Shown piece after piece: positions 4,570 to 22,620 of a stretch of 23,842 nt of DNA (positions within the stretch are counted from its first letter, which is position 1; every line of letters starts with the position of its first letter). Source of the stretch: a virus. Position numbers and translations under genes: made by a program. The DNA lies in IMG/VR virus record IMGVR_UViG_3300023202_000395, positions 1-23,842 of that record; one strand, 5' to 3'. The notes below the pieces were generated by a model. That model was not told the DNA's origin. It did no database searches and saw only the letters and a program-made list of their open reading frames with translations.

Positions 4570-4778
4570 TGCCCTCGACCACAACGACGCCCCACCGCCC
4601 GGCCACCGCCGGCGACGGCGATCATTACGGCCGTAATACCGGCCTCGCCTGCCCCGGCTGCGGCGGGCAAAAGCTCCCGGTCGCGTACACCCGGCAGCGA
4701 CCGGGCCACGTGTTGCGGGTTCGCGCCTGCCCCGGCTGCGGCCGCCGCGTGGTGACCCGCGAACGGCTCGATCGCTAG
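4569..4778 (+). CDS. small zinc-ribbon protein
   Basis: The 69-residue protein starts at an ATG overlapping the terminase stop by one base. It has two CPGCG knuckles ('LACPGCGGQKLPV' and 'RACPGCGRRVVTRE') separated by about 24 residues, a four-cysteine zinc ribbon. Small zinc-ribbon proteins of this kind occur between terminase and portal genes in some phages and in late transcription activators (Ogr/Com-like), so a DNA- or RNA-binding role is plausible but unproven. The linker upstream of the first knuckle (residues 19-23, 'HYGRN') is encoded by the 14-bp palindrome ATTACGGCCGTAAT at 4624-4637. That suggests the palindrome was inserted or retained inside a tolerant, disordered part of the protein. 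Confidence 0.75.
   Translation: MPSTTTTPHRPATAGDGDHYGRNTGLACPGCGGQKLPVAYTRQRPGHVLRVRACPGCGRRVVTRERLDR
4624..4637. repeat. 14-bp palindrome, copy 1 (exact)
   Basis: ATTACGGCCGTAAT, perfectly self-complementary without a spacer, preceded by tc and followed by acc. It lies inside the coding sequence of the zinc-ribbon protein, in its low-complexity N-terminal linker. The other copies are at 9601, 17624 and (one mismatch) 21890. Candidate protein-binding site. Confidence 0.85.
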
Positions 4779-4812
4779 CATTTTCGGCGACCCGGTACAC
4801 ATCTGTAACTTT

Positions 4813-4831
4813 CCCGGCCGCTTCGGCCGGG
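4813..4831 (+). other. GC-rich hairpin between zinc-ribbon and gpW-like genes
   Basis: A 7-bp stem CCCGGCC (4813-4819) pairs with GGCCGGG (4825-4831) around the loop gcttc. It lies in the 93-bp gap between two late genes. No T-tract follows, so it is not a convincing intrinsic terminator. It could modulate mRNA stability or attenuate transcription. Confidence 0.4.
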
Positions 4832-4871
4832 GCCGCTTCACCCGCCCCGCTCGCTGATCGATGCGGATGGC

Positions 4872-5066
4872 GTGAGCGACCTGGCGCAGCAGATCGAAGA
4901 GAACGCCGCCGGCCCGGCCGAAGCCACGGTGGACAATCAGACCGTCCGCCGGCACTCGCTGCGCGACCAGATCGAAGCCGATCGGTACCTCGCGAGCAAG
5001 GCCGCGACCCGGAAGTCCGGGCTCGGCATCAAGCGAACGCGGGCCGTCCCGCCGGGGGCGGCGTGA
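4872..5066 (+). CDS. gpW-like small head-tail joining/head completion protein
   Basis: The 64-residue protein uses a GTG start. The upstream in-frame option is absent, and the ATG at 4861 is in another frame and stops at once. The C-terminal two thirds read 'TVRRHSLRDQIEADRYLASK' and then end 'VPPGAA'. This is the pattern I recall for the short proteins that sit immediately before lambda-type portal genes in GpA-terminase phages. They are often called gpW-like or are left uncharacterised. Its stop overlaps the portal start (GTGATG). Function as a head-completion or portal-associated protein is inferred from this invariant position rather than from visible catalytic motifs. Confidence 0.65.
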   Translation: MSDLAQQIEENAAGPAEATVDNQTVRRHSLRDQIEADRYLASKAATRKSGLGIKRTRAVPPGAA

Positions 5067-6526
5067 TGTTCGGGATGCTGAAGAGAGCGAAGGCCGCGCG
5101 GATCAGTGAGCGCGGGGGCACCCTCAACGCCCGGTACGACGCGGCCCAGACCACCGACGAAAACCGGCGGCACTGGGGCAACGCCGACTACCTCTCGGCC
5201 GACGCCGCGACCAGCCCCGAGGTCCGCCGCACGCTCCGGGCCCGGGCCCGGTACGAGACGGCGAACAACACCTACGCCCGCGGGATCGTCAACACCCTCG
5301 CCGACTACATCGTCGGCACCGGACCGCGGCTGCAGGTGCTGCTCGACGACGACGAGGCCAACCGCGTGATCGAGCGGGAGTTCACCCGCTGGGCGAGGTC
5401 GATCGACCTGGCCGCTCGGCTGCGTTCGATGAAGGCCGCCGAGACCGAGTCGGGCGAGGTTTTCGCGCGGCTGAAGACGAACAACGCGATAGATGGGCCA
5501 GTGCAGCTGGATATCTGCCTGATCGAGGCGGACCAGGTCGCCACGCCGACGATCGACCGGCCGGACGAGACCGGCGTCGACGGCATCGTGTTCGATGACG
5601 ACGGCAACCCGATCACCTACCACGTCCTGCGGCAGCACCCCGGCAGCAGCCGGTGGCTTGGGCTCGCGACGGAGTTCGAGCCGGTCCCGGCCGACCTGGT
5701 GATCCATCTCTTCCACGCGGCGAGGCCGGGCCAGAGCCGTGGCATCCCGGCGATCACGCCGGCGTTGCCGCTGTTCGCCTTGCTCCGCAGGTACACGCTG
5801 GCGGTCGTCGGCTCGGCCGAGCAGGCCGCGCTGATCGGGGGCGTGATCTATACCGACGGCCCGGCCGCCGAGACGGCCGACGTCGAGCCGATGGACAAGG
5901 TCGAGCTCGACCGCAACACGTGGATGACGCTGCCCGCCGGCTGGAAGCTCGGGCAGCCGAAGGCCGAGCAGCCCACGACCATGTACGGCGACTTCAAGCG
6001 GCACGTGATCGCCGAGATCGCGCGGTGTTTGAACATGCCGTTCAACATCGCGGCCGGCGACAGCTCGGGCTACAACTACGCCTCGGGCCGGCTGGACCAT
6101 CAGTCCTTCTTCCGCAGCCTGCGGATCGAGCAGCAGCGGATCGAACACGTCGTGCTCGATCGGCTGCTTGCCGCGTGGCTCGACGAGGCCGCGCTGGTCG
6201 AGGGGTTGCTGCCCGGTTCGGCCCGGACGCTCGACGCCGCCGGGGGCCGCATCCCGCACCAGTGGTTCTGGGATGGGTTCGAACACGTCGATCCGCTGAA
6301 GGAAGCGAACGCCCAGAAGGCCAGGCTCGCCGCGAACACGACGACGCTCGCCGCCGAGTACGCGCGGCAGGGGCTCGACTGGGAGCAGGAGCTGCGCCAG
6401 CGCGGCCGCGAGGCGGCGCTGATGCGAGAGCTCCAGCTCACGCTCGCCGACGCCGTCGACGACGACGCTGACGACCAAGACGACCCGGAGGACGCGGCCA
6501 GTGAGCCAGCCGACGCCCGAGTTTGA
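5066..6526 (+). CDS. phage portal protein, lambda family
   Basis: The 486-residue protein forms the dodecameric DNA gate at one capsid vertex and docks the terminase. Recognisable blocks run through the protein: 'YETANNTYARGIVNTLADYIVGTG' near 71-94, 'RSMKAAETESGEVFARLK' near 119-136, and 'LFHAARPGQSRGIPAITPAL', which is the typical lambda-portal 'G-Q-x-RG-P' block, near 218-237. 'GDSSGYNYASGRL' follows near 330-342 and 'WDGFEHVDPLKEANA' near 405-419. The acidic tail (DDDADDQDDPEDA) is typical of late portal C-termini. I chose ATG 5066; the GTG at 5063 would add one residue. The gene overlaps the capsid gene by 26 nt, implying translational coupling. Confidence 0.93.
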   Translation: MFGMLKRAKAARISERGGTLNARYDAAQTTDENRRHWGNADYLSADAATSPEVRRTLRARARYETANNTYARGIVNTLADYIVGTGPRLQVLLDDDEANRVIEREFTRWARSIDLAARLRSMKAAETESGEVFARLKTNNAIDGPVQLDICLIEADQVATPTIDRPDETGVDGIVFDDDGNPITYHVLRQHPGSSRWLGLATEFEPVPADLVIHLFHAARPGQSRGIPAITPALPLFALLRRYTLAVVGSAEQAALIGGVIYTDGPAAETADVEPMDKVELDRNTWMTLPAGWKLGQPKAEQPTTMYGDFKRHVIAEIARCLNMPFNIAAGDSSGYNYASGRLDHQSFFRSLRIEQQRIEHVVLDRLLAAWLDEAALVEGLLPGSARTLDAAGGRIPHQWFWDGFEHVDPLKEANAQKARLAANTTTLAAEYARQGLDWEQELRQRGREAALMRELQLTLADAVDDDADDQDDPEDAASEPADARV

Positions 6527-9131
6527 CGCCGCCATGAAGGTGGCGATCGCCGGCGTGCTGCCGGCGAAGGACGTGGCCGCTGCGAAGAAGTCGCTGCAGG
6601 CCGGCGACCTCGCGGAGCTCGACCTGCGCCTGCACCTGCGGGCGCTGGTGACCAAGGGTGAGCCCACCGACGCGGCGGCGACCTGCACGCTGCTGAACAA
6701 GGCGGCGCTCGCGTGGCTGATACAGCGGATGGGCTGCACGAAGGCCGCGCTGCTGGACGCGCTGCAGGAGCTGGCCAACGAAGCCATCGCCAACGGCGGC
6801 AAAGTCCGCGACGACCTGATCGAGAAGGACCACGAGCTGCTGAAGACGATCGCCGAGGTGCAGCACGCCGTCGTCGCCAGGCTGCCCCGCACCGTCCGCG
6901 ACGGCTCCGTGAAGGTCGCCGGGCGGATCGAACCTCTCACCGACGATGAATCGACGCCCTTGCAGATCGCGGCAGAACAGCCGGCGGGCAACTCAGACCT
7001 GCGGCTGCTGACCGCCGAATGCGCCATTACCGCGGCCGGGGCCGACGGAGGGTCGGCCCCGCCGCGGTTTTCGATGACCGCCTACAACGGCGGCGCGATC
7101 CGGCTCGACGGGTGGAAGCATCCGGTCGTCATCGACCTGCAGGGGCTCAATGTCCCGTCGCAGCGCCGGCCGATCCGCTTCAACCACTCGAAAGACCGCG
7201 GCGTCGGCCACACCGAGCGGATCACGGTCGCCGCCGGCGACAGCGGCCTGCCGGTCCTTGTTGCCGAAGGCGTGATCAGCCGGCAGACGGCCGAGGCGCA
7301 GGAAATCATCGCCAGCAGCCGCAGCGGCTTCCCGTGGCAGGCGTCGATCGGCGCGACCGCCGACCAGGTGCAGACGCTGCGGGCCGGGGCCGGCACCACC
7401 GTCAATGGCCGGGCCATCCAAGGCCCCGCCCACGTCGTGCGTCGATCGACGCTCGCCGAGATCAGCTTCGTCGACCTGGGCGCTGATGACACCACCAGCG
7501 TCGCGGTCGCCGCCCAGACCCCAGAGGGAGACCAGGACATGAACTTCGAACAGTGGCTGCGTGCGCGGGGCTTCGATCCCGCCGATATCAACGATGCCCA
7601 GCGGACGTCGCTGAAGGCGATGTACGACGCCGACCAGGACGCCGGGAGCGGTGGGGCGGGCGGCGACTCACCCGATCCCGCCGCCCCGGCGAACGGCGGC
7701 AACGGCGGCGTGCAGGCCGCTGCCTCGGCCCGTGGCAACGGCCCCGACACGACCGGCGACGGCGACCTCGAACAGGTCCTCGCCGAGGCCCAGCGGGAAG
7801 GCGAGCGTCGGCGGCGAATTACCGCCGCCACCGCCGAGGTGCTCGCCGAGCGGCCGGAGCTGTCCGACCACGTCGGCCGGCTCGCCAACTCGGCGATCGA
7901 GGCCGGCTGGGACAGCCAGCGGTACCAGCTCGAGCTGCTCCGCATCGGCCGCGGCCGCGGCGGGGCCGGCTCCGCCGTCCGCCGCGACGAGCAGCGGGAC
8001 GGCCGGGTCGTCGAGGCGGCGCTCTGCCTCGCCGGCGGGCTGGAGAACCCCGACAAGGCCTTCGATGAACCGACGCTCGAAGCGGCCGGCCGGCAGTTCG
8101 GCAGCGGGCTCGGGCTCGGCGAAACCCTGCTGATGTTCGCCCAGCAGAACGGCTACCGCGGGCACGGCACGTCCAACGTCCGCGGGCTGCTGCAGTGCGC
8201 CTTCAGCGACGGCCAGATCAACGCCGCCGGCGGCTTCAGCACGCTGTCGCTGCCCGGCATCCTTAGCAACGTCGCGAACAAGTTCCTCCGCGCAGGGTTC
8301 GACGCGGTCGAGAGCACGTGGCGGGCGGTCGCCGCGACGCGGCCGGTCCGCGACTTCAAGCAGGTCACCAGCTACAGCCTCACCGGCGGCTTCCAGTACG
8401 AGAAGGTCGGCCCCGGCGGCGAGCTGAAGCACGCCACCGCGGGCGAGGTCTCGTATACCAACCAGGCCGAGACCTTCGGGCGGATGTTCGCCATCACCCG
8501 GCAGGACATCATCAACGACGACCTCGGGGCGCTCACCCAGGTCCCGCGTCGGCTCGGCCGGGGGGCCGCGCTGAAGCTCAACGAGGTCTTCTGGAAGGCC
8601 TTCCTCGACAACGCCGGGTTCTTCAAATCGGCGAACAAGAACTACGCCGACGGCTCGGCCACCGCGCTGGACCTCGACGCCCTGACCCAGGGCGAGCAGC
8701 TGTTCCTCGACCAGACCGACCCGGACGGCAACCCGCTCGGCATCCTGCCGACGCTGCTGCTCGTCCCGAACGCGCTGCACGTCACCGGCTCGAACCTGAT
8801 GAACTCCACCGAGGTTCGGCCCGCCGGCGGCAGCAGCAAGACCGTCACCGCGGTGAGCAACCCGCACGCGGGCAAGTTCGAGGTCGTCCGCAGCTCCTAC
8901 CTCTCGACCGCCGGCTGGACCGGGGCGTCGACGAAGGCGTGGTACCTGCTCGCCTCGCCGGGCGACATGCCCGTGATCGAGGTGGCGTTCCTCAACGGCC
9001 GGCAACAGCCGGTCGTCGAGTCGGCCGACGCCGACTTCAACGTGCTCGGCATCCAGATGCGGGGCTACCACGACTTCGGCGTGGCACTCCAGGAGCCCCG
9101 TGGCGGCGTGAAGATGAAGGGTGAGGCGTAG
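6501..9131 (+). CDS. prohead protease-scaffold-major capsid fusion protein
   Basis: The 876-residue protein appears to join three functions. Residues about 165-340 resemble a phage prohead serine protease: 'IRFNHSKDRGVGHT' (H229), 'FPWQASIGA' (S282) and 'STLAEISFVDLGAD' (E320) are the expected catalytic neighbourhoods. Residues 347-490 form a charged, Gly/Pro- and Glu/Arg-rich scaffold-like segment. Residues about 500-876 look like an HK97-fold, Mu gpT-like major capsid protein ('FAITRQDIINDDLGAL', 'EVFWKAFLDNAGFF', ending 'MRGYHDFGVALQEP'). Residues 1-160 are an extra N-terminal domain I do not recognise. GTG 6501 is preferred because ggagg lies 9 nt upstream (6487-6491), whereas ATG 6534 lacks a ribosome-binding site. 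An internal in-frame ATG at 7539 has its own ribosome-binding site and may make the capsid precursor alone. Confidence 0.88.
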   Translation: MSQPTPEFDAAMKVAIAGVLPAKDVAAAKKSLQAGDLAELDLRLHLRALVTKGEPTDAAATCTLLNKAALAWLIQRMGCTKAALLDALQELANEAIANGGKVRDDLIEKDHELLKTIAEVQHAVVARLPRTVRDGSVKVAGRIEPLTDDESTPLQIAAEQPAGNSDLRLLTAECAITAAGADGGSAPPRFSMTAYNGGAIRLDGWKHPVVIDLQGLNVPSQRRPIRFNHSKDRGVGHTERITVAAGDSGLPVLVAEGVISRQTAEAQEIIASSRSGFPWQASIGATADQVQTLRAGAGTTVNGRAIQGPAHVVRRSTLAEISFVDLGADDTTSVAVAAQTPEGDQDMNFEQWLRARGFDPADINDAQRTSLKAMYDADQDAGSGGAGGDSPDPAAPANGGNGGVQAAASARGNGPDTTGDGDLEQVLAEAQREGERRRRITAATAEVLAERPELSDHVGRLANSAIEAGWDSQRYQLELLRIGRGRGGAGSAVRRDEQRDGRVVEAALCLAGGLENPDKAFDEPTLEAAGRQFGSGLGLGETLLMFAQQNGYRGHGTSNVRGLLQCAFSDGQINAAGGFSTLSLPGILSNVANKFLRAGFDAVESTWRAVAATRPVRDFKQVTSYSLTGGFQYEKVGPGGELKHATAGEVSYTNQAETFGRMFAITRQDIINDDLGALTQVPRRLGRGAALKLNEVFWKAFLDNAGFFKSANKNYADGSATALDLDALTQGEQLFLDQTDPDGNPLGILPTLLLVPNALHVTGSNLMNSTEVRPAGGSSKTVTAVSNPHAGKFEVVRSSYLSTAGWTGASTKAWYLLASPGDMPVIEVAFLNGRQQPVVESADADFNVLGIQMRGYHDFGVALQEPRGGVKMKGEA
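7524..7541 (+). promoter_or_regulatory. internal ribosome-binding site and start for the scaffold-capsid part
   Basis: GAGGGAG (7524-7530) lies 8 nt before an in-frame ATG (7539-7541, residue 347 of the fusion), exactly between the protease-like and scaffold-like regions. The peptide after it ('MNFEQWLRARGF') looks like a natural N-terminus. Use of this start would give a 530-residue scaffold-capsid product in excess over the protease fusion, in the manner of the nested lambda C/Nu3 arrangement. This is inference from sequence. Confidence 0.6.
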
Positions 9132-9151
9132 ACCGCCTCCCGGCCCTGAAC

Positions 9152-9184
9152 GCCGCGAGGCGGCCGCACACGCCGCCTCGCGGC
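9152..9184 (+). terminator. 12-bp perfect stem-loop after the capsid gene
   Basis: GCCGCGAGGCGG (9152-9163) pairs perfectly with CCGCCTCGCGGC (9173-9184) around a 9-nt loop. It lies 20 bp after the capsid stop, in the 107-bp gap before the decoration gene. No T-run follows, so it may be a leaky attenuator or an mRNA 3'-end stabiliser rather than a full terminator. Such a device would adjust capsid against decoration and tail expression. Confidence 0.55.
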
Positions 9185-9238
9185 TGCCTCGGCGACTGAC
9201 CCCAGCATCCCCAGAACACCAAGCGAAAGGACCCACCG

Positions 9239-9568
9239 ATGGGAGCCAAGTACAAGCACGAAGGCGCGGCGATCGAGTACATCCCCGGCCTCGACATCGA
9301 GGCCGGGGACGTGGTCATCCTCAGCGGCCTGGTCGGCGTCGCGAACCACCCGATCACCAGCGGCCAGGTCGGCACGCTGGCGATCGAGGGCGTCTTCGAC
9401 TTCCCGAAGGCGCTCAGCGGCGTCACGTTCAATCAGGGCGGCGACGCTTACTGGGACGACAGCGCCGACGTGGCCGTCGTGCTGGCCAGCGGCAACACGC
9501 TGATCGGCCCGATCACCAAGGCCGCCGGCGACGGCGACGAGTTCGTCAGCGTCAAGCTCAGCCCGTAA
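9239..9568 (+). CDS. capsid decoration protein, DUF2190-like
   Basis: The 109-residue protein follows the capsid gene. It has the pattern of DUF2190 phage proteins: an early 'GLDIEAGDVVILSGLVGVA', a central 'IEGVFDFPKALS' (the family's 'l-x-G-V-F-x-L-P-K' block), then 'FNQGGDAYWDD', and a final short strand. Members coat or cement the head surface. Length (about 110) fits. It is preceded by a purine-rich ribosome-binding region (gaaagga near 9223-9229). Confidence in the family is good; the surface-cement role comes from family knowledge. Confidence 0.8.
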   Translation: MGAKYKHEGAAIEYIPGLDIEAGDVVILSGLVGVANHPITSGQVGTLAIEGVFDFPKALSGVTFNQGGDAYWDDSADVAVVLASGNTLIGPITKAAGDGDEFVSVKLSP

Positions 9569-9600
9569 CCGCCCCCGGAGCGCCCCGAGCCGGCCCGTTC

Positions 9601-9614
9601 ATTACGGCCGTAAT
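9601..9614. repeat. 14-bp palindrome, copy 2 (exact)
   Basis: ATTACGGCCGTAAT ends 4 nt before the ATG of the head-tail connector gene (9619), occupying the place where a Shine-Dalgarno would be expected. A protein bound here on DNA could affect transcription through the operon. In mRNA it could fold back to sequester initiation. Confidence 0.85.
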
Positions 9615-9618
9615 CACC

Positions 9619-9993
9619 ATGCCCAACCTGCTCGCCGAAGCCGCCGCGATGGTCAGCGCCAACCGCCACGAGCACCTCACGTCTGAGGTCAGCTTCGAGC
9701 GAGGGGGCGAGGCGGTCACGGTGCAGGCGACGGTGGGCGAGACGGTGTTCCGCCTCGACAACGGGGCGGGGGGGACGATCCGCTACGTGAGCCGCGACTA
9801 CCTGGTCCGCTCGCAGGATTTGGTGATCGGCGGCGTCGTGGTCGAGCCCCGGCGGGGCGACCGCATCGTCCACGCGATCGGCGGCGATCACAAGCGGCAC
9901 GAGGTGCTCGGCCCCGGCGGCGACGAGCCGGACTGGCGGTACAGCGACCCGTCGCACTTGACCATCCGCCTGCACACCCGGGAGGTCGGCTGA
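9619..9993 (+). CDS. head-tail connector/head completion protein candidate
   Basis: The 124-residue protein ends with 'PRRGDRIVHAIGGDHKRHEVLGPGGDEPDWRYSDPSHLTIRLHTREVG'-like features: an 'R-G-D-x-I' turn, a 'P-x-W-R-x-S-D-P' block near 107-114 and a terminal 'IRLHTREV' strand. This pattern is common in proteins found between decoration and tail-terminator genes of siphophages and is compatible with gpFII-like stoppers. The start is the ATG at 9619; there is no Shine-Dalgarno because the 14-bp palindrome occupies that region. Its stop overlaps the next ATG (TGATG). The connector role rests on gene order plus that C-terminal pattern. Confidence 0.6.
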   Translation: MPNLLAEAAAMVSANRHEHLTSEVSFERGGEAVTVQATVGETVFRLDNGAGGTIRYVSRDYLVRSQDLVIGGVVVEPRRGDRIVHAIGGDHKRHEVLGPGGDEPDWRYSDPSHLTIRLHTREVG

Positions 9994-10229
9994 TGCAGTC
10001 GCTCCGCACCCTGCAGGCGCTGATCGGCGGGGCCGCCACCCTCGGCACGGTCCAGGTGGTGTCCCTGGACACGCTGGTGCCGCTGGGCCTGGTCGTGCTC
10101 GGCGGCGGGCTGCTGTGGCGGGTTTCCGCGCTGATCCATCGCGTCAACGATCGGCTCTCCAACCTCGAGCGCCGCATCAACGGCCTCGACCGCCGACGCG
10201 AGTCGAGAGCGGTGGGGGGAGACCGATGA
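9993..10229 (+). CDS. small membrane protein with C-terminal coiled coil (holin candidate)
   Basis: The 78-residue protein has a hydrophobic N-terminal half with one or two membrane-spanning stretches (about residues 7-22 and 25-42, 'LVPLGLVVLGGGLLW'). A basic amphipathic helix follows ('IHRVNDRLSNLERRINGLDRRRESR'). Architecture of this kind is seen in small phage holins and in membrane-anchored accessory proteins. It sits in the head-completion/tail-terminator cluster, with one-base overlap upstream and a 4-base overlap (ATGA) downstream. No family is recognised by sequence, so holin is a hypothesis only. Confidence 0.6.
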   Translation: MQSLRTLQALIGGAATLGTVQVVSLDTLVPLGLVVLGGGLLWRVSALIHRVNDRLSNLERRINGLDRRRESRAVGGDR

Positions 10230-10672
10230 CCGTTGCCCTGCTGGTACAGCTCCAGGCCGCCGTGATCGCCGAGCTCAACGACGCCGCCTTCGCCGCCGAA
10301 CACGGCGAGGAGTTCGTGGCCGTGCGGAAGTACCGCGCAGAGTACGAAGTGAAAGATCTCACCGACCTGAAGGTGACGGTCGTGCCCAAGGCGGCCGACC
10401 GGACCATCGCCAGCCGGGGGGAGACCGCCCAAGAGTTCCAGATCGACGTGGCCGTTCAGCAAAGGCTGCCGGCCGACTTCGAGCAGGAGCGGATCGACGA
10501 GCTGCTGCTGCTGGTCGAGCAGATCGCCGAGTGGATGCTCGCCCGCCGACCGGCCACATTCACCACCGCCATCTGCGTCGCCGTGAGCGAGACGCCCATC
10601 TACAGCGTCGAGCACCTCGACGCGATGCGCGTGCTCACCGCCCCCGTGACGCTGACCTTCAAGGTGCTGTGA
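10226..10672 (+). CDS. tail terminator/tail completion protein candidate
   Basis: The 148-residue protein starts at an ATG overlapping the previous stop and is preceded by a strong purine-rich ribosome-binding site (gggggaga). It has an N-terminal helix, a beta-rich centre ('LKVTVVPKAADRT', then 'EFQIDVAVQQRL'), an amphipathic helix ('ERIDELLLLVEQIAEWMLARR') and a final strand 'TAPVTLTFKVL'. This alternation and length are typical of gpU/tail-terminator-type proteins, which cap the tail tube at the head end. The location just before the tail tube gene agrees. The assignment is by pattern and gene order, not by a diagnostic motif. Confidence 0.55.
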   Translation: MTVALLVQLQAAVIAELNDAAFAAEHGEEFVAVRKYRAEYEVKDLTDLKVTVVPKAADRTIASRGETAQEFQIDVAVQQRLPADFEQERIDELLLLVEQIAEWMLARRPATFTTAICVAVSETPIYSVEHLDAMRVLTAPVTLTFKVL

Positions 10673-10682
10673 GGAACCGACC

Positions 10683-11180
10683 ATGAACCGCAAGACCCTC
10701 ATCATCGCCGCCGTGCTCACCGCCGTCACCTTCGGTGGCGTGGCCGCCTGCGCCGGCTTCGACGCCGGCGACGTCGTCCACGTGAAGACGCCGCCGACGA
10801 TCCAGCAGCAGACCGGGCTGCCGAGCAAGACCTCCCTGAACGAAGCCCGCGCCGAATACCAGGCGTGGCACCAGGACGTGCAGCGCGCCGGCGCGGCGTG
10901 GCAGGCGTCGATCGACAAGGGCGAGCAGGTCCGCTCCCTGATCGGCCAGCTCACGCTGCAGGCGCTCGACCAGGTCGGCCCGACGATCGCCGGCGTGCCC
11001 GTGCTCGGGCCACTGATACCGACCGCGACGGGCCTGCTCGGCCTGCTGCTCGGCACCGGCCGGCTGCGGAAGGAGAAGGAGAGCTCGTACAACGCCGGCC
11101 TCGACCGCGGCCAGCAGCTGCCGACCCCGGAGACCGGCCCGCCGGTCGTGCCGCCGCCCGGCCCGCGGCTGGCGACCTGA
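10683..11180 (+). CDS. putative lipoprotein with a central membrane segment
   Basis: The 165-residue protein opens with a signal peptide ('MNRKTLIIAAVLTAVTFGG') and a lipobox-like 'VAAC' with Cys23, predicting lipidation. Residues 70-110 are a helical, charged region. A hydrophobic segment near 108-127 ('VLGPLIPTATGLLGLLLG') is followed by positively charged 'RLRKEKE'. The C-terminus is Pro-rich. aggaa at 10674-10678 is its ribosome-binding site. A lipoprotein inside a virion-assembly operon is unusual; a spanin-like lysis or superinfection-exclusion role is possible. No enzyme motif is visible. With the preceding small membrane protein it could form a membrane module. Function unknown. Confidence 0.65.
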   Translation: MNRKTLIIAAVLTAVTFGGVAACAGFDAGDVVHVKTPPTIQQQTGLPSKTSLNEARAEYQAWHQDVQRAGAAWQASIDKGEQVRSLIGQLTLQALDQVGPTIAGVPVLGPLIPTATGLLGLLLGTGRLRKEKESSYNAGLDRGQQLPTPETGPPVVPPPGPRLAT

Positions 11181-11231
11181 CGCGCTGATCGACGCCCCCA
11201 CCCACGAACAACAGGTAAGGAGAACACCACC

Positions 11232-11687
11232 ATGGCCAAGAAAACCGGCCTCGACATGAAGGCGTACCTGTCCAGCACCGCGCTGGACGGGTCGAGCAAC
11301 ACCCCCGGCACGGTCACCTGGACCGAGGTCCCGGAGATCAGAGACGCCACCCCGTCGATCGAGGTGGGCGAGGCGGACGTGAGCTCGCGGGCCAGCGTGT
11401 TCCGCGAGCGCCTCACCACGCTTCTGGACCTCGGTGTTGACTTCAGCATCGTCTGGGACAGCGGCAACGCCAACATGCAGGCGCTCCGCGACGCGTGCCT
11501 CAACCGCACGACGCTCGCGATGGCGTTCATGGACGGGCCGATCGCCACCGAGGGCAGCGAAGGCCCCGTCGCGAACATGCACGTCTTCGGGTTCAGCCGG
11601 GCCGAGCAGCTCGAAGACGGTGTCACCGTCGACCTGAGCGTGAAGCCGGCCAGCCATACCGAGTGGTACGAGGTGCCCGCGGCGTAA
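11232..11687 (+). CDS. major tail tube protein
   Basis: The 151-residue protein has a strong ribosome-binding site (aaggaga, 11217-11223), expected for an abundant virion protein. It shows the usual tail-tube order: a short N-terminal arm ('KKTGLDMKAYLSS'), then 'WTEVPEIRDATPSIEVGEADVSSR'-type strands (near 35-58), a helix around 'NANMQALRDACLN', and closing strands 'EDGVTVDLSVKPASHTEWYEV'. This fits short TTP-like tube proteins placed between tail-terminator and assembly-chaperone genes. The protein polymerises into the tube through which DNA passes. Family assignment is by pattern and position, and fairly secure. Confidence 0.78.
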   Translation: MAKKTGLDMKAYLSSTALDGSSNTPGTVTWTEVPEIRDATPSIEVGEADVSSRASVFRERLTTLLDLGVDFSIVWDSGNANMQALRDACLNRTTLAMAFMDGPIATEGSEGPVANMHVFGFSRAEQLEDGVTVDLSVKPASHTEWYEVPAA

Positions 11688-12383: not shown

Positions 12384-12409
12384 TCTTCGAGATCGCCGGC
12401 CGGGTCGGC

Positions 12410-13122: not shown

Positions 13123-13125
13123 CCC

Positions 13126-15498: not shown

Positions 15499-15512
15499 CC
15501 AAGGACCTCGAC

Positions 15513-16322
15513 GTGCCGATCACCGTCGCGGACAAACACGCGGGTTACAAGCTCGGCGGGAAGACCGCCGAGCGGCTCTACGTCGTGAAGGGGACCACCG
15601 ACGTCGCCGCGGCCCGCTCCGCGCTGATCGCCGCGGCCCCGGCGACGTGGGAGGGCCTGACCCGTGACACCGACGCGGCCGACGTGGAGGACCTCGCCCA
15701 CCAGGCGTGGCTCGGCCGCGTGCCTTACAAGCTCCCCAACGCTACGCAGAAGGACGTCGGCGAGAGCAGCTTCAACTTCGAGGTCGGCGGGCAGACGGTG
15801 AACATCCGCCAGTCGCCCAACACGCTCGCCAGCTACGCCCCGGCCGGCGAGACCGCGCCCGACTTCGAGGGCGCGATCGGGGTGAGCCAGCAGGGCGAGA
15901 CGATCAGCGTTGCCGGCGTCGATATCGTCGTGCCTCGTTACAGCTTCAGCGAGACGCACGTCTTTGCCGCGGCGTCGATCGACGCCGCCTACAAGGGCAC
16001 GCTCTTCAGCCTGGTCGGGTCGACGAACGACGCCAGCTTCAAGGGCCTCGCCGCCGGCGAGTGCCTGCTGCAGGGCGTGAGCGGCGGCGCGCGGGGCGAC
16101 GGCGACTACGAGCTCACGTTCAACTTCGAGGGGCTGCCCAACGAGACGGACATCACCGTCGGCGACATCACCGTCGCCAGCAAGGGCGGCTGGGATTATC
16201 TCTGGGCCTACTACGCCGAAGAGGTCGACGCCGGTCGATACATCAGCAAGCCGGTCGCTGCCTACGTCGAGCGGCTCTACCCGCGGAAGAACTTCAGCCT
16301 GCTCGGCATAGGGACCGCGTGA
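15513..16322 (+). CDS. distal tail/virion structural protein of unknown family
   Basis: The 269-residue protein starts at a GTG with aagga (15501-15505) upstream, 14 nt after the tape-measure stop. It is strand-rich with many aromatic and Gly residues ('ESSFNFEVGGQTVNIRQS', 'GDYELTFNFEGLPNETDI', 'GGWDYLWAYYAEEVDAGRYI'). No recognisable enzymatic motif is present. The position directly after the tape measure is that of distal tail or hub proteins. The sequence 'FNFE' recurs at about 87-90 and 205-208, hinting at two related beta-domains. The one-base overlap with the next gene (TGATG) couples it to the tail-tip protein. The structural role is inferred from place and composition. Confidence 0.6.
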   Translation: MPITVADKHAGYKLGGKTAERLYVVKGTTDVAAARSALIAAAPATWEGLTRDTDAADVEDLAHQAWLGRVPYKLPNATQKDVGESSFNFEVGGQTVNIRQSPNTLASYAPAGETAPDFEGAIGVSQQGETISVAGVDIVVPRYSFSETHVFAAASIDAAYKGTLFSLVGSTNDASFKGLAAGECLLQGVSGGARGDGDYELTFNFEGLPNETDITVGDITVASKGGWDYLWAYYAEEVDAGRYISKPVAAYVERLYPRKNFSLLGIGTA

Positions 16323-17614
16323 TGCGATCGCTCCGCAAGGTCAGCTCGACATCTCCGCCGGGGAAGCTGAGGGCCCGGACCTTCAACGCGATCGTTGACG
16401 GCCTGCAGGCCGAGCGCCGGTCGATGCGGCAAGGCCCGCCGATCGGCCAGGCCGCGACCGCGGCCGGGCTGATCACGATCCGCAACGGCACCGGGGCCGA
16501 CCTGCTGCCGCACCAGGTGGTGGGGCTGGGCGACCCGCTGATCCATCCCACGACCGGCGCGGCGAGCGAGCCGGGCTGGTTGAGCCGGCCGGGCCTGGTC
16601 GGCGAGACGCCGGCGATCGCCGACCACCTCGGCCGGTTCGCGATCACCGCGACCCCGATCCCCGACGGCGGGCTCGGCTTCGCCCGCGTCGACGGCGCGG
16701 TCCACTGCAAGGTGCAGATGGAAGACGACGGTCACCAGTGGGCGGACGTGGACGACGGCGAGGTCGCCCACCTGGTCAGCGGGTCCGCCGGCACCGCCCG
16801 CATCCTCTGGGTCGATACCGGCGACAACCCCCGCCACGCGCTCGTGCTGCTCGGCACGAACGCCCCGCTCGGGCTCTTCGCCAACTACCAGGCCTACTTT
16901 GCCGACGACACGCTCAGCGTCCCGGCGTCCCGGATGCGGGCTGTCCTGGTCGGCGGCGGCGGCGGTGGCGGCGGCGGCAGCAACAGCTCGACGAGCTTCG
17001 AGTTCTACGTCGCCGGCAGCTCCGGCGGTGACACGACCGTGCGGCTCGCCGAGGGGCTCGCCGGCGGCGGCGGGGGCGGTGCCGGAGGGCTTGCCTTCGT
17101 CGACCTCGACGGGCTCGTGATCGGCGACACGATCACGATTACGGTTGGGGCGGCCGGGGCGGCCGGGGCGATGGCCACGAAGGGCGCAACCGGCGGTCAC
17201 TCGTCGATTGTGATCGCAGGCGACGCGGCGGTGGAGAAGATCGTCGCCCGCGGGGGTTACCCCGGCCTCTCCGGCGGATCAAACAATCCGGGCGGCGGCG
17301 GGGTCGGTGGGCAGTGCGGTGTCGGGTCGTCGGCCGAGGACGCCTTCATCAGCTCGGCCAACGCGGTCTATGGGGCACGCACCGGCGACCGTTACAACGT
17401 GCTCGCCGTCGGCGGGGTCGGCGGCGCGAGCGGGCAGTGGGGCCGGATCAACGACCACGTCGATGACGGCATCGGTGGCCGGGGCGGCGACGGCCAGTTC
17501 GCGCCGTTCGTGGTCGCCGAGGGCTCTTTGGCCAAGGGCAGCGGGGGGGCGGGCGGCAAGGGCGGCTCGGCCGGCGTCGCCGGCCAGAAGGGGGCGGTCG
17601 CGCTGCTCTGGTAG
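16322..17614 (+). CDS. glycine-rich tail-tip/receptor-binding protein candidate
   Basis: The 430-residue protein has an N-terminal region ('RTFNAIVDGLQAERR') followed by a compact domain to about residue 200. From about 205 a glycine-rich domain takes over: 'VLVGGGGGGGGGS', 'GLAGGGGGGAGG', 'NNPGGGGVGGQCG' and 'GSGGAGGKGGSAG', with intervening variable loops. This resembles glycine-rich tail-tip proteins with packed polyglycine-II helices (as in the S16 gp38 adhesin type), whose loops contact the receptor. The protein is the last gene of the late operon, a usual place for host-range determinants. Annotation rests on composition; no sequence family is certain. Confidence 0.65.
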   Translation: MRSLRKVSSTSPPGKLRARTFNAIVDGLQAERRSMRQGPPIGQAATAAGLITIRNGTGADLLPHQVVGLGDPLIHPTTGAASEPGWLSRPGLVGETPAIADHLGRFAITATPIPDGGLGFARVDGAVHCKVQMEDDGHQWADVDDGEVAHLVSGSAGTARILWVDTGDNPRHALVLLGTNAPLGLFANYQAYFADDTLSVPASRMRAVLVGGGGGGGGGSNSSTSFEFYVAGSSGGDTTVRLAEGLAGGGGGGAGGLAFVDLDGLVIGDTITITVGAAGAAGAMATKGATGGHSSIVIAGDAAVEKIVARGGYPGLSGGSNNPGGGGVGGQCGVGSSAEDAFISSANAVYGARTGDRYNVLAVGGVGGASGQWGRINDHVDDGIGGRGGDGQFAPFVVAEGSLAKGSGGAGGKGGSAGVAGQKGAVALLW

Positions 17615-17623
17615 CCGCGGGTC

Positions 17624-17637
17624 ATTACGGCCGTAAT
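17624..17637. repeat. 14-bp palindrome, copy 3 (exact), at the convergent junction
   Basis: ATTACGGCCGTAAT sits in the 22-bp gap between the stop of the last late gene (17614) and the stop of the minus-strand membrane protein gene, touching the latter by one base. It is flanked by gtc and caccgcc, as in copy 2. It has no loop or T-tract, so it is not a normal terminator. Confidence 0.85.
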
Positions 17638-18017: not shown

Positions 18018-18049
18018 CGGCTGCCCCAGATTGAGAGGAGGGGCCGAGG

Positions 18050-18345: not shown

Positions 18346-19548
18346 TCACCCGAACCCGACCAGCCGCAGCGGCGGCCGGCCGTCGCCGGCGCCGGTGCCG
18401 GTCGGGGCCAGCGGGTCGGGCGTGCGGGGCGGCGGGCCGTCGGTACCGCTCCGCCCCAGGCGGACGATCAGCTGCCGGCGAGCTTCGCCATCATCGTTGA
18501 CGTACCGCTGGGTCGTCGTGATCCGGCGGTGGCCCATCTGCACCCGCGTGCCCTCGGGATCCACGCGGACGCTCCGCGTCGCGAACGCGTGGCGGAGCTG
18601 AAGCGGGGTCAGCGGCGGCAGCCCCGCCCGCGTCAGCGCCCGCGCGATCGCCCGGTACATCGCCGTGCGGGCGTGGTAGGGGTGCGAGGCCGACCAGGGG
18701 AACAGCCGGGCGGCGGGGTCGAAGTCCACCGCAAACGACAGCCGGGCCTGCCCCGCGTCGGTCGAGTTCGCCCACACCGCCTCGTCGATCAGGGCCTTCG
18801 CCCGAGCGGTCAGCCCGACCACGCGCCGCTCTTCGCCCTCGTGCTCGGTCTTCCACTCCGGCGGCAGATACTGCCAACCGCCGCTTCCGGGGCTTCCGGG
18901 GGCGTCTTCGACCACGTCGCACCGCCGCATGATGACCAGCTCGATCGCCCGCATCCCGGTCTCCCACATCAGCTCGAGCGCGACCGCGACCAGCAGCCGT
19001 CGGCGGTGCTGGTCCCGCTGGTACGCGGTGCGGCGGGGCATCCGCCGGCACTCGCCGCGGATCGCCGCGACCAGGTCAAAGACGACCTCGGCCGGGGCCG
19101 CGGGCACCCGCTCGCTCCGCCTCGCCTTGCCCTTGCCCGGCTTCGACGGCCGGCACCGCTTCAGCTCGTGGGTCACCTCGCGGTCGAGCAGGTCCTCGCC
19201 TTCCGCCCACGCGTACATGCCGATCACCATCTGCCGGCACTTGTTCACGTGGGCCAGCGTCCACGGCTTGCCGTGACAGTTGACCTTGGTCTGCAGGTGG
19301 TCGAGGTAGGCCCGCAGATGTTGGCGATTGAGCTCCTCGGCCGGCAGGTCGCCGATGCCCCCGGAAGCGTCGTCACCGCCAAGCAACGGCAGGTTCGAGC
19401 CGGGGCCGGATTCCGGGGGCGGGGGGACTTCGAGCAGGTACTCGGTCGCGGCCCGGATCGCCGACGCGGTCGAGGTCGATCGGCCGTGTTTGACGTACTC
19501 GCGTGCGGCGTGCGCCCGGTAGTGGTGGACCAGTTCGGCAAGCTTCAT
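18346..19548 (-). CDS. tyrosine recombinase (phage integrase)
   Basis: The roughly 400-residue protein catalyses site-specific integration and excision through a covalent 3'-phosphotyrosyl link. Catalytic positions, numbered from the GTG one codon before my chosen ATG, are R201 ('ETGMRAIELVIMR'), K234 in 'PEWKTEHEGEERRVVGL', R320 in 'LQLRHAFATR', H341 in 'QMGHRRITT' and Y350 ('TQRYVN'). The His of the usual H-x-x-R box is replaced by Leu317 (PLQLR), as I recall for planctomycete-type integrases. The N-terminal core-binding domain (about 70-135) precedes a basic linker. The ATG at 19548 is preceded by gaggtg. A strong inverted repeat lies just downstream. It diverges from the toxin-antitoxin genes across a 428-bp region. 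Confidence 0.92.
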   Translation of the reverse strand: MKLAELVHHYRAHAAREYVKHGRSTSTASAIRAATEYLLEVPPPPESGPGSNLPLLGGDDASGGIGDLPAEELNRQHLRAYLDHLQTKVNCHGKPWTLAHVNKCRQMVIGMYAWAEGEDLLDREVTHELKRCRPSKPGKGKARRSERVPAAPAEVVFDLVAAIRGECRRMPRRTAYQRDQHRRRLLVAVALELMWETGMRAIELVIMRRCDVVEDAPGSPGSGGWQYLPPEWKTEHEGEERRVVGLTARAKALIDEAVWANSTDAGQARLSFAVDFDPAARLFPWSASHPYHARTAMYRAIARALTRAGLPPLTPLQLRHAFATRSVRVDPEGTRVQMGHRRITTTQRYVNDDGEARRQLIVRLGRSGTDGPPPRTPDPLAPTGTGAGDGRPPLRLVGFG

Positions 19549-19687
19549 CACTTCACCTCGTGATCGCCTCCGTGCTGGGGTGAGGATTGAGGCCCCGGCG
19601 ATGACGCTAGAGTCTTCCGGCCGCTCGCTCCGCTCCTGAACGTCGCGATCGGCTGCCGGGCCGTGGTGGGGACCGATGACCGCCGCG

Positions 19688-19725: not shown

Positions 19726-19751
19726 ACTACCCGGCGACGGCCACCATCAAC

Positions 19752-19773: not shown

Positions 19774-19806
19774 GAGGGCCCGTGCAGTCGCCACGGCCCG
19801 AGGCAA

Positions 19807-19840
19807 GGCCCCGCCGGCGGATCAGTCGCCGTGCGGGGCC
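19807..19840 (+). terminator. terminator-like compound stem-loop
   Basis: GGCCCCGC (19807-19814) pairs with GCGGGGCC (19833-19840). An inner CGGCG/CGCCG stem (19815-19819 with 19827-19831) stacks on it with one bulged T. It is followed by gctttgt, a weak T-rich tail. It could insulate the toxin-antitoxin promoter from upstream transcription. Confidence 0.5.
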
Positions 19841-19920
19841 GCTTTGTAAACGCAGAGGCCCGGCGGCTTCCTCCGATCCCTCGAACGCCGGGAAGTCTTT
19901 TACACGCGTGGTTGTGACGC

Positions 19921-19949
19921 TTGACAACTACGCGGGGCGGGGTTATCCT
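19921..19949 (+). promoter_or_regulatory. sigma70-type promoter of the toxin-antitoxin pair
   Basis: A perfect -35 TTGACA (19921-19926), a 17-nt spacer and the -10 TATCCT (19944-19949, four of six to consensus) are followed 28 nt later by the toxin ATG. A gaggg ribosome-binding site lies between. It is the clearest promoter in the window. Confidence 0.75.
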
Positions 19950-19976
19950 TCCACACAACCCTTGAGGGTCGACCCG

Positions 19977-20222
19977 ATGCCCGTCCGCTACTACTTCTGG
20001 ACCCCGCGAGCCGAAGCGAAGGTCGCCGAGCACGGCGTCGAGAAGCACGAGGCGGAACAGGTGCTGGAGCACCCCGAGCGGGACGAGCCGAGCGCATCGG
20101 ACCCGGACCACATGTGGGCCGCCGGGTACACCGCGGCCGGCCGCTGGATCGTCGTCGCCTACGAGCCGCTGGACGACCTGTGGGTCGCCCCGATCACCGC
20201 CTACGAACCCGCCGAGGAATGA
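19977..20222 (+). CDS. BrnT/RelE-like toxin of a toxin-antitoxin pair
   Basis: The 81-residue protein shows a pattern recalling BrnT and related RelE-superfamily toxins: 'FWTPRAEAKVAEHGVEKHEAEQVLEHP', then 'WAAGYTAAGRWIVVAYEPLDD', then 'WVAPITAYEP'. The 'HGV-x-x-x-E-x-E-x-V' helix followed by 'GR-x-x-x-V' strands and a final 'P-I-T-A-Y' strand is the family signature I rely on. Such toxins are mRNA interferases that act on the ribosome or on free RNA. The gene follows a strong promoter and is 4 nt upstream of an XRE-type antitoxin, the usual HigBA-like order. An alternative is a DUF4258-type protein without toxic activity. Catalytic residues cannot be assigned with certainty. Confidence 0.72.
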   Translation: MPVRYYFWTPRAEAKVAEHGVEKHEAEQVLEHPERDEPSASDPDHMWAAGYTAAGRWIVVAYEPLDDLWVAPITAYEPAEE

Positions 20223-20226
20223 ACCC

Positions 20227-20610
20227 ATGCCGACGCGACAGACCAAGCCGAAGCCGCCGAAGCTCTCGAAAAAGAAGCTCGCCCAGCTCGACCGGGCGGT
20301 CGATCGGATCGACGAGCAGATGCCGGCCATGACCGCCTGGGCGCTGGCGGCGAAGCGGGAGACCGACACGATCCGCGGCATCCGCCGGGCGCTCAAGGCG
20401 GCCCGGCTGCACAAGGGCGTCTCGCTCGCCGACCTCGACGCGAAGACCGGGATGGGCAAGGCGAACCTCTCCCGCCTCGAGAACAGCGACCAGGCGAACC
20501 CGACGATCGAGACCCTGCTCCGCGTGGCCGACGCGCTGGGCGTCGAGGTGAAGATCGCGGTCCTCGATCGCGAGGCCGGTGAAATGATCGACACGGGCAA
20601 GGCGGCGTAG
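20227..20610 (+). CDS. XRE-family antitoxin/transcriptional regulator
   Basis: The 127-residue protein has a Lys-rich N-terminal arm and helix (1-50, with 'AQLDRAVDRIDEQM'), then a helix-turn-helix of the XRE/Cro type at about 54-110. Its key elements are 'ARLHKGVSLADLDAKTGMGKANLSRLEN', followed by 'NPTIETLLRVADALGVEVKIAV'. It lies 4 nt after the toxin gene with gagga upstream of its ATG, so the pair is translated together. In such pairs the antitoxin neutralises the toxin and, alone or with it, represses their promoter. Besides stabilising the prophage, it could double as a phage regulator, because no CI-like repressor is visible elsewhere. Confidence 0.85.
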   Translation: MPTRQTKPKPPKLSKKKLAQLDRAVDRIDEQMPAMTAWALAAKRETDTIRGIRRALKAARLHKGVSLADLDAKTGMGKANLSRLENSDQANPTIETLLRVADALGVEVKIAVLDREAGEMIDTGKAA

Positions 20611-20611
20611 G

Positions 20612-20815
20612 TCATCGCAGGGCCTCCGCATCCTCGACCAACCGGACCCGCAGCACGCCGTCGCCGAGCATGATCCGCTCGGCGAGGTCGACCGGCAGGT
20701 CGACGGTGAACGTCGCCGGCCCGTCGCCGTCCGAGGTGAAGCGGGTCGCGACCGGCCGGAGCTCCAGCACCGGCCGGGGCGGTTCCGGGGGGCGGCGGCG
20801 GAAGAAGCGGATCAT
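20612..20815 (-). CDS. small hypothetical protein downstream of the ParB-like gene
   Basis: The 67-residue protein starts 'MIRFFRRRPPEPPRPVLELRPVATRF' and has a strand-rich end ('ATFTVDLPVDLAERIMLGDGVLRVRLV'). Its ATG overlaps the ParB-like stop by four bases (ATGA), so it is made from the same message. Its stop lies one base beyond the end of the convergent XRE antitoxin gene. No family is recognised. Confidence 0.6.
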   Translation of the reverse strand: MIRFFRRRPPEPPRPVLELRPVATRFTSDGDGPATFTVDLPVDLAERIMLGDGVLRVRLVEDAEALR

Positions 20816-22620
20816 CGCCGCCCCGCCTTCCGCAGCGCCTGAGGCGCGGGCTTGTCTCCGGCCTGCTCCACCAGCGCGTCGATCAGCTGCTCGCGGTTCA
20901 ACTTCGTGATGCCGACGACGCGCACCTTCCACTCGCGGGCGAGGCTGCGGAGCTGGCGGGCACAGTACATGCCCAGGAACGTCCGGCCGCCGGCCGAGGC
21001 GTCGGCGTCGAGGTCGGCTTCGGCCAGCCGCCAGCCGTCGAGCGTCAGGCCGAGGGCCTCGGCGATCGCGTCGACCACGCCGTCCTGGTAGACCACTGGA
21101 TCGACGATCGTCGCGCTGATCACCGCCCGCAGCACCTCGATCGCGCCGCCGGGGTCGAGCGACAAAACAGCAGCCGCGCCGTTCCGCGTGTACCCGAAGG
21201 GGCGGGCGATAGTAAGGTCCCGCTCTCCGCCGGCGGCGTTGATGGCGGCGACGACCTGGGCTTCTTCGAGCGGATCACCAAACGCCCACCCGCACAGCGC
21301 GAGCTTCACCAGCAGCGGCTCCGGGGCGTCGGTCACTCGCTCGGCCACCTGCGCCCGCAGGTAGGCGTCGCGATAGCGGGCTAGCAAGCGGTCGAGCGCG
21401 TCGTCTTCCCGCTGGTGGTTCGCCTTCGTCTTCGCCGCTCGGGCGTCGCCCGTCATCGCGTCGACCTGGTCGGCGGGCGGCCCCTCCGAGAGCGTCGGCC
21501 GCGTCGCCGCCTTCGCTTCCTTCGCCGCACGCTTCTTGCGTCGCTCGACGCCGGCGGCCTGCAGCTCTTCCCAGCGGTCGACGTTGAAGGCCCGCGGCTC
21601 TTTCCGCCCGCCAAGCGTGAGCGTCTCGACGTCGAGCTCTTCGCGTTGTTTCCTGGTCGCGCGGAACGCGACCGTGCCATGCCGGATCCGGCCCGTTTCG
21701 TCGTGCTGGCAGTAGGTCCCGGAGAGGGGACGCGAGCACCGCCTCACCGCTGCCATGATGCCGCGGCGGAAATCAGGAAGTGTCATAACATCGACGCCGA
21801 TCCCCTCGTTCTCCACCGCGCCCGCCAGCAGCGTCATCACCCGCTCGCGGCCGACCCACGGCACGAGCTCCCGCGCCCAGCTCGCCGGCATTACGCCCGT
21901 AATCACCCGTTCCCGCCAGGCCTCGGGCAGCTCCAGCAGACCCAACCGCTGGGCGACCTTCGGCTGACTGATCCCCAGCCGCCTGGCCAGCGCCGCCTGC
22001 GTGTAGCCGGCGGTCTCGATCATCGCCTCGAACCAGCCCGCCTCTTCGACCGCGTTGAGCTCGGCGCGGGCGAAGTTCTCCATGCCCGCGAGCTCGACGG
22101 CCCGCTTGTCGTCGGCCTCGATCACCGCGCACCGCAGCGGCAGCCCGGCCAGCTTCGCCGCCCGCCACCGTCGCTCGCCCGCGATCAGCTCGTAGCGATC
22201 GCCGCCCCCGGAAGCGCCGCCCCCGGAAGCGCCGCCCCCGGAAGCGCCGCCCTCTGAAGCCGCGCCCTCCGAGCCGCCCACCCGGCGGACGACCGCGTTC
22301 TGGAGCTGGCCGTCGGTCTTCAGCGAGTCGGCGAGCTTCCGCAGCTCCGCCTCGTCGAAGTGCTTCCGCATCTGGAACGGGCTCGGGTCGATCAGCTCGG
22401 TCGCGATCGGCCGGACCCCCCCGGAAGCCTGGTCGGGCCTGGCATCGACGCTGACCGGCTCGGCCGGGGCCATGCTGGCCAGCCGGCCGCGCCGCTCGGG
22501 GTGCCGGGCGATCGCCGACTCGGCCGCGGACCTGGTCGCGTGCTCGCTGATCCGCTCGCCGGCCGGGTCGATCACCGCCCAGCTCGCGCGGCCGTTACGT
22601 CCTTCGGTTGCCGTCGCCAT
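20812..22620 (-). CDS. ParB-like DNA-binding protein with long C-terminal extension
   Basis: The 602-residue protein belongs to the ParB/RepB/Spo0J superfamily. The N-terminal ParB domain (about 71-175) has 'ELIDPSPFQMRKHFDEAELRKLADSLK', 'ELIAGERRWRAAKLAGL' (the GERR CTPase motif at 148-151) and 'ELAGMENFARAELNAVEEA' (the usual 'EN-x-x-R-x-x-LN'). A helix-turn-helix follows at about 205-230 ('TQAALARRLGISQPKVAQRL'). A Gly/Ser pentapeptide repeat (121-140) interrupts the ParB domain. The C-terminal 350 residues are unlike typical ParB; the last part ('KLNREQLIDALVEQ') looks SAP/Rho-N-like. The start is ATG 22620 with aggagag upstream; TTG 22653 would add 11 residues. No ParA is present. It may act on a centromere-like site, in replication or in regulation. 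Confidence 0.85.
   Translation of the reverse strand: MATATEGRNGRASWAVIDPAGERISEHATRSAAESAIARHPERRGRLASMAPAEPVSVDARPDQASGGVRPIATELIDPSPFQMRKHFDEAELRKLADSLKTDGQLQNAVVRRVGGSEGAASEGGASGGGASGGGASGGGDRYELIAGERRWRAAKLAGLPLRCAVIEADDKRAVELAGMENFARAELNAVEEAGWFEAMIETAGYTQAALARRLGISQPKVAQRLGLLELPEAWRERVITGVMPASWARELVPWVGRERVMTLLAGAVENEGIGVDVMTLPDFRRGIMAAVRRCSRPLSGTYCQHDETGRIRHGTVAFRATRKQREELDVETLTLGGRKEPRAFNVDRWEELQAAGVERRKKRAAKEAKAATRPTLSEGPPADQVDAMTGDARAAKTKANHQREDDALDRLLARYRDAYLRAQVAERVTDAPEPLLVKLALCGWAFGDPLEEAQVVAAINAAGGERDLTIARPFGYTRNGAAAVLSLDPGGAIEVLRAVISATIVDPVVYQDGVVDAIAEALGLTLDGWRLAEADLDADASAGGRTFLGMYCARQLRSLAREWKVRVVGITKLNREQLIDALVEQAGDKPAPQALRKAGRR
21890..21903. repeat. 14-bp palindrome, copy 4 (one mismatch), inside the ParB-like gene
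   Basis: ATTACGCCCGTAAT differs from the other copies at one of the central bases. The 3' flank caccc matches copies 2 and 3. It falls in the ParB-like coding sequence just after the helix-turn-helix region (residues 'VITGVM', about 239-244), where protein-coding constraint may explain the change. Confidence 0.7.
22201..22260. repeat. 15-bp tandem repeat encoding ASGGG pentapeptides
   Basis: Three identical 15-bp units GCCGCCCCCGGAAGC (22201, 22216, 22231) and a fourth with two changes (22246-22260) encode, on the minus strand, ASEGG and three ASGGG units. They lie inside the ParB-like domain as a flexible loop. The 12-mer GCCCCCGGAAGC of the unit also occurs in the integrase gene in both orientations. 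Confidence 0.85.

Follow-up and report, generated by a model that had tools for sequence, protein, structure and literature searches.

Several members of the ParB family act as DNA clamps, and passages of three articles on ParB, Noc and KorB (PMC8429893, PMC4331003, PMC11790492) describe binding to a specific site followed by CTP-dependent clamp closure and sliding. At the first base of the site, Arg173 of ParB reads guanine 1 of parS and Gln173 of Noc reads adenine 1 of its own site, according to excerpts of PMC7383237. Many homologues with the ParB-CTPase fold lie outside parAB operons, often on prophages and plasmids; the main text of the article describing them (PMC12704722) contains neither "palindrom" nor "dispersed", and its passages on these orphans describe no cognate dispersed sites. 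A virus record of 23,842 bases with a GC content of 70.9% (IMG/VR record IMGVR_UViG_3300023202_000395; "the window" denotes this whole stretch) encodes such a ParB-like protein and carries four copies of a 14-bp palindrome, ATTACGGCCGTAAT. Sequence comparison with related elements provides strong evidence for a pairing of site and protein, and the four copies are very probably the landing sites, still putative, of a DNA-clamp protein encoded by the virus itself.

Palindrome copies and the ParB-like protein of the window

A pattern scan of the window recovered three exact copies of ATTACGGCCGTAAT and one copy with a single mismatch (ATTACGCCCGTAAT), at the same positions that an earlier note on this DNA had reported, and no further copy appeared when up to 3 mismatches were allowed. 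The rarity claimed in the earlier note was checked against 100 dinucleotide shuffles (≤3 mismatches), which gave a mean of 0.12 matches and a maximum of 2, with four matches reached in none. Among 81 sequences (80 terminase relatives and the window), the window alone contains a perfect 12-, 14- or 16-bp palindrome in at least three copies. The partly conserved flanks that had been described were also found: the base C precedes the site in all four copies and CACC follows it in three, site 1 having ACCG instead. The placements of the copies had been given correctly and are listed here together with the ParB-like gene.

4624..4637: site 1, ATTACGGCCGTAAT, in the N-terminal part of a zinc-ribbon open reading frame (ORF), where it codes for H-Y-G-R-N
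9601..9614: site 2, exact copy, in the gap between the end of the upstream ORF (9568) and the ATG of the head-tail joining gene (9619, 4 nt after the site)
17624..17637: site 3, exact copy, in a convergent gap between ORFs ending at 17614 (plus strand) and 17637 (minus strand)
21890..21903: site 4, ATTACGCCCGTAAT, one mismatch, inside parB, codons V-I-T-G-V-M
20812..22620, minus strand: ParB-like protein of 602 aa (613 aa from an alternative TTG start at 22653)

The final T of site 3 is part of the stop codon of the minus-strand ORF. The ParB-like protein contains ParB_N and HTH_ParB domains (Pfam, 2.6e-16 and 5.6e-12) and retains the CTP boxes, with GERRWRA in Box II (pattern GERRxRA) and ENFARAELNAVEEA in Box III (pattern ENxxRxxLxxxExA). 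The best match among solved structures is Noc (4.7e-23), closely followed by Spo0J (1.1e-22), and the Gln of Noc is shared in the alignment; the match to KorB is weak (0.0028). By eye alone, no N-terminal amphipathic membrane helix is apparent in the window ParB (MATATEGRNGRASW).

A dispersed site class in ParB-encoding elements

A total of 160 terminase relatives in two sets of 80 (2.2 Mb in total) served as control loci. No match to the window ParB was present at 1e-5 among the terminase-relative loci then compared, and an IMG/VR search for close ParB relatives returned none for the window, pPLIM01 and G502 (G, C and L numbers are our labels) and two for phage VarioGold. When 144 loci were scanned without supervision for perfect palindromes that recur, the hits were the window and ParB-encoding replicons, including pPLIM01, the phages VarioGold and Aval, a ParAB plasmid and a locus with parS adjoining ParB, as well as a local repeat in G031 and, weakest of all, one control. 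The G031 repeat (TGGCCA, L240) consists of local clusters of GGCCA units and was set aside. The plasmid pPLIM01 of Planctopirus limnophila carries eight copies of GATTTC-N4-GAAATC. Overall, the repeat scan was significant for 13 out of 30 sequences chosen for ParB content, a set that includes ParAB or parS controls plus L018, selected for its palindrome, and marginally so for 1 out of 111 terminase-relative controls. In the comparison with related prophages proposed in the earlier note, relatives encoding a similar ParB carry dispersed palindromes of their own with the same architecture, and terminase relatives without such a ParB carry nearly none.

The planctomycete elements share a single site geometry, ATTnC-N4-GnAAT with complementary arms (A-type). 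Nine elements (392 kb) contain 42 such sites where 1.1 are expected based on the controls; the 160 control loci contain 6, with no more than one per locus. The sites are distributed over the elements as follows.

window (ATTACGGCCGTAAT): 4
pPLIM01: 8
G526: 8
G031: 6
G627: 4
G625: 4 (6 with the flanking stretch)
G587: 3
G502: 3
G423: 2

The window entered the set because of its motif. G502 and G587 ranked in the top four ParB matches, and their in-parB copy was already visible before wider sequence was taken; the other six elements were chosen by a ParB match together with a long open frame. Eight of the nine are clearly phages, with a terminase alongside portal or capsid genes as judged from similarity or annotation; the finds in G587 were limited to an integrase and two pPLIM01-type proteins. 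The ParB ORFs of G592, G135, G176, G063 and G548 showed no A-type site.

Site type and the base-1 contact residue

The residue at the base-1 contact was obtained for 65 out of 83 targets (18 fell outside the pattern, and G176, matched at the wrong place, was removed). It is Gln in all nine A-type elements, and the A-type site is in the majority in each of them. Among 48 Arg loci, G-type (parS) sites are in the majority in 24, neither type in 24 and A-type sites in none. A Fisher test on the 9 versus the 24 loci gives 3e-8, a value that is optimistic because the loci are related and not independent. The 24 Arg rows with neither majority comprise 4 VarioGold-type loci and 20 short loci, three Arg rows contain one A-type site alongside three G-type sites, and among the 16 Gln rows, 7 are short duplicate entries for the nine elements. 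The window agrees with this division, having Gln in place of Arg at position 173 and no G-type (GTTnC) parS site. Counting along its sequence, the window ParB has Arg179, Glu184 and Ser201, and base 6 of the site is G; the Lys of Noc at 179 or 184 is not matched in the window protein.

The copy of the site inside parB

Five of the nine elements have a site at matching codons of parB.

window: V-I-T-G-V-M
pPLIM01: V-I-S-G-E-I
G502: L-I-T-G-G-I
G587: L-I-S-G-E-I
G031: I-I-S-G-E-M

Both arms differ jointly between pPLIM01 (ATTTC..GAAAT) and the window (ATTAC..GTAAT), and the window protein has T in place of S and V in place of E. The mismatch in site 4 preserves a glycine that is found in 15 out of 19 aligned ParBs; a perfect palindrome would encode alanine. 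Because I-S-G-E-I is a protein motif that a near-palindrome can encode, it may have been an easy seed for the site. The in-gene copy of G526 is at another place, residues 117-123 (V-I-S-D-E-I), and no in-parB copy is present among the class sites of G627, G625 and G423. A different place within parB, coding for S-A-D-x-C-T, is shared by VarioGold, Aval and two IMG/VR relatives.

Confinement and spacing of the sites

The genome that carries pPLIM01 (G483; ParB match 100%) contains the exact 18-bp pattern seven times, every time on pPLIM01, where the eighth site is mismatched. In G625, six of seven sites lie inside a 32-kb stretch that ends beside the ParB gene, and in G526, 8 of 16 sites are on the ParB contig, 7 on two other contigs and 1 elsewhere. 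The two other G526 contigs, C29 (3339-14888; L301) and C34 (62852-86124; L303, L304), encode phage structural genes or a Dam-like methylase, and are perhaps one split prophage or a prophage using the ParB of the other phage.

The sites are spaced more evenly than random placement in pPLIM01 (P 0.0015), G526 (P 0.0003) and G625 (P 0.03 with six sites). Across 12 elements, none of 200,000 simulations reached the combined statistic, and 2 of 200,000 did so without pPLIM01 and G526; the combination is optimistic because VarioGold, G648 and G649 are related. The test admitted sites with mismatches in G587 (two), G502 (one) and VarioGold, G648 and G649 (up to one), and of the Aval sites five were used, with a weak match at 8332 excluded along with three-mismatch matches in VarioGold. 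The mean interval between sites is 4-8 kb, and sites also lie among structural genes.

VarioGold-type phages (L238, L239, and L242 and L243, which are G648 and G649) carry 5-7 dispersed sites resembling GTGCAsAC-GTsTGCAC, one of them in parB, and represent a parallel system with a different site.

Search for a ParA partner

The earlier note had described a ParB-type protein without ParA, and no ParA was matched within the window fragment by tblastn. The two ParA queries (1e-2) also found none in the available stretches of the eight other Gln elements, and the same queries did match control plasmids, G548, G063 and G176. Several of the nine elements are incomplete, as is the window, and these negatives cover the stretches available. 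No ParA is annotated among the 54 features of pPLIM01, and the ParA-binding motif (L/F/I)G(K/R)G(L/F/I) is absent from the ParBs of all nine. A separate observation concerns G548, where an ORF at C81 (L287) 16241-18268 resembles a ParA-ParB fusion and has three G-type parS sites nearby.

Alternative explanations of the palindromes

Judged from the comparisons above, the palindromes are probably scattered places at which the ParB-like protein of the same contig loads onto DNA. A host-wide or mobile dispersed repeat, which the earlier note had put forward as its main alternative, or chance, is very improbable. The 14-mer occurs in none of the 14 genomes that carry related phages and in 4 of 397 genomes from the class to which the nearest relative belongs, one copy each (a reversed control pattern occurs in 7 of 397), which counts against a host-wide repeat in the genomes searched. 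The 28 IMG/VR stretches that contain the 14-mer have a single copy each and fit chance in a large collection. The refuting observation named at the outset was an equal density of the palindrome in the host chromosome; in the pPLIM01 genome, all matches to the related motif instead fall on the ParB element, as nearly all do in G625, and this together with the shuffle mean of 0.12 argues against a repeat or chance as the origin of the four window copies. One of the 28, L018, was followed further and rejected: its 14-mer extends to TGATTACGGCCGTAATCA, its 13.5 kb gave no ParB match and its ORFs resemble, by eye, a cyanobacterial phage with psbA/psbD-like genes, so that this copy is attributed to chance.

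A perfect palindrome suits any dimeric repressor and the window encodes an XRE antitoxin-like protein (20227-20610), so the copies could be operators of that or another regulator. This is improbable, given that the palindrome is absent in and just upstream of the BrnT-like/XRE pair (19842..20610) and that the site type tracks the ParB contact residue across elements. Both proteins had been named as candidate binders; comparison favours the ParB-like one, and nothing was found that points to XRE.

A number of observations weigh against the pairing of site and ParB or against its generality. Position 201 and base 6 depart from the Noc rule in the window, with Ser and not Arg at the former and G and not C at the latter. 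G423 has two sites only, and G502 qualified through divergent sites and not through the unsupervised scan. A repeated perfect palindrome is absent from Maja, Schnabeltier, Taranis (first 50 of 54 kb), ctl617 and Bbif-1, which encode phage ParBs without an annotated ParA, and from MT835611. The shared parB codons lack a copy in four of the nine elements, seven G526-class sites are on contigs without ParB in the parts examined, and spacing is not significant in Aval (0.51), G502 (0.32), G627 (0.31), the window (0.10) and G031 (0.08). The window is a fragment, so a ParA may sit outside it. Finally, the ParBs of pPLIM01 (L237:31483-33477), G502 and G587 have GHTR and not GERR in Box II, and CTP use may therefore not be general. 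The GHTR box in itself hints at altered nucleotide use.

Possible purposes of the proposed ParB loading

If the protein works as Noc, ParB and KorB do, its dimer would bind the site, close around the DNA with CTP and slide off. Loading sites are present every few kb across early and late genes, so the clamps would serve the whole phage genome; they may cover or organise the entire phage DNA, with organisation, marking or segregation as possible outcomes. It is tentatively proposed, with somewhat less than even confidence, that planctomycete temperate phages and, in parallel, proteobacterial VarioGold-type phages encode ParA-independent ParB clamps with evenly spaced genome-wide loading sites, forming a chromatin-like system that coats or marks DNA and does not partition it, and in which site and protein have co-diverged and a site often lies within parB itself at fixed codons.

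Two other purposes would be compatible with the pairing and, given the pairing, each is rather unlikely. The bound sites could serve long-range silencing or activation, as for KorB on RK2 and for VirB, with clamps reaching phage promoters from distal sites so that a prophage is kept quiet or its genes are timed. The ParB gene is near the integrase, sites lie within and between phage genes, and KorB, a CTP clamp, exerts its repression from operators at a distance (PMC11790492, in part); the even spacing in site-rich elements and the intragenic position of several sites speak against such a role. Alternatively, the sites could form a dispersed centromere that partitions an extrachromosomal prophage with a host ParA or none (compare N15, which has its own SopA). 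The circular 37-kb phage-plasmid pPLIM01, with ParB and no annotated ParA, would suit partitioning. In passages of two articles, phage Eta is proposed to segregate by a ParB homologue plus host factors (PMC7556043), and 25 glacial phages have ParB-like genes, 13 of them with a ParA-family gene as well (PMC4490671). Against partitioning, VarioGold is integrated in a tRNA gene (PMC9658991, in part), the ParBs of G502, G625 and G423 are encoded inside contigs of 6.8-7.9 Mb, all nine ParBs lack the canonical ParA-binding motif, and an even spread across all genes is not required for it.

Other genes of the window

The gene set of the window is that of a temperate tailed phage according to family searches (gpA-type terminase, portal, integrase, ParB-like protein and others). 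The remaining features are listed below.

2503..17614, plus strand: packaging and virion gene run, spanning sites 1 and 2
18346..19551, minus strand: tyrosine integrase
19842..20610, plus strand: BrnT-like ORF (weak, under the Pfam cut-off) followed by the XRE antitoxin-like ORF

Family searches identified the terminase, portal, protease-capsid and head-tail joining protein in the gene run; its later genes had no family match, and Pfam gave nothing for eight further window proteins. The label "tape measure" for 13126-15498 was assigned by eye. The long ORF at 6501-9131 is a protease-capsid fusion, with matches to families of the head maturation protease and of the major head protein in one frame, and the BrnT-like and XRE ORFs are a possible toxin-antitoxin pair. 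The terminase relatives of the window (best 80 of 234) are mostly from planctomycetes, the nearest from a Phycisphaera metagenome-assembled genome (MAG). Among these 80, three genomes contain three or four copies of the terminase family each (L112, L116, L118 and L185; L132, L142, L156 and L173; L151, L161 and L186), which suggests several related prophages per genome.

Comparison with known systems

The window system shares ParB_N and HTH_ParB domains and palindromic sites with ParABS, but differs from it in having no detected ParA, no ParA-binding motif and no GTTnC parS, and in sites that extend over the element. The idea of ParB-bound sites in the earlier note is strongly supported by the matching sites of relatives and by the residue-to-base rule, with the refinement that the site class is nearer to Noc-binding sites than to canonical parS or the KorB operator. 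The sites are, moreover, spread over the whole element and are not gathered in one centromere or at promoters.

Noc is likewise a ParB paralogue with palindromic sites scattered over the replicon (~70 in B. subtilis; PMC4331003, in part) and with Gln at the base-1 contact and A at base 1 (PMC7383237, in part). It differs in that the window ParB has ~600 aa with a long extra C-terminal region, that Arg201/C6 are unmatched, and that the carriers are phages of planctomycetes, which are described as lacking FtsZ. The operator of KorB differs from the window palindrome, and KorB also works with IncC. KorB of RK2 is similar in being a ParB-family clamp with several operators, but it works with KorA (PMC11790492, in part). 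SopB of N15 is also a phage ParB-family protein with four inverted-repeat (IR) sites (IR1-IR4), which are unlike the window sites. Partition of N15 uses SopA, and its four IR sites are scattered over the phage genome. The IR letters, as given in part of PMC7205306, contain GTGC arms like the VarioGold sites.

Dispersed sites of ParB-family proteins are already known for Noc, KorB and N15. Titles, abstract openings and passages of open-licence PMC papers yielded no description of orphan phage ParBs whose cognate sites are evenly dispersed, and the main text of the VarioGold article (PMC9658991) names the ParB but contains neither "palindrom" nor "parS". According to parts of PMC12704722, mobile elements frequently carry orphan ParB-like proteins, and these are largely uncharacterised. 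The present analysis adds predicted sites for a set of them and a residue-to-base rule, and a cultivable model is at hand in the phage-plasmid of Planctopirus limnophila DSM 3776, pPLIM01, for which eight sites are predicted, so that the function of orphan ParBs becomes directly testable. Clamps that cover whole phage genomes would, if confirmed, represent a new use of the ParB switch.

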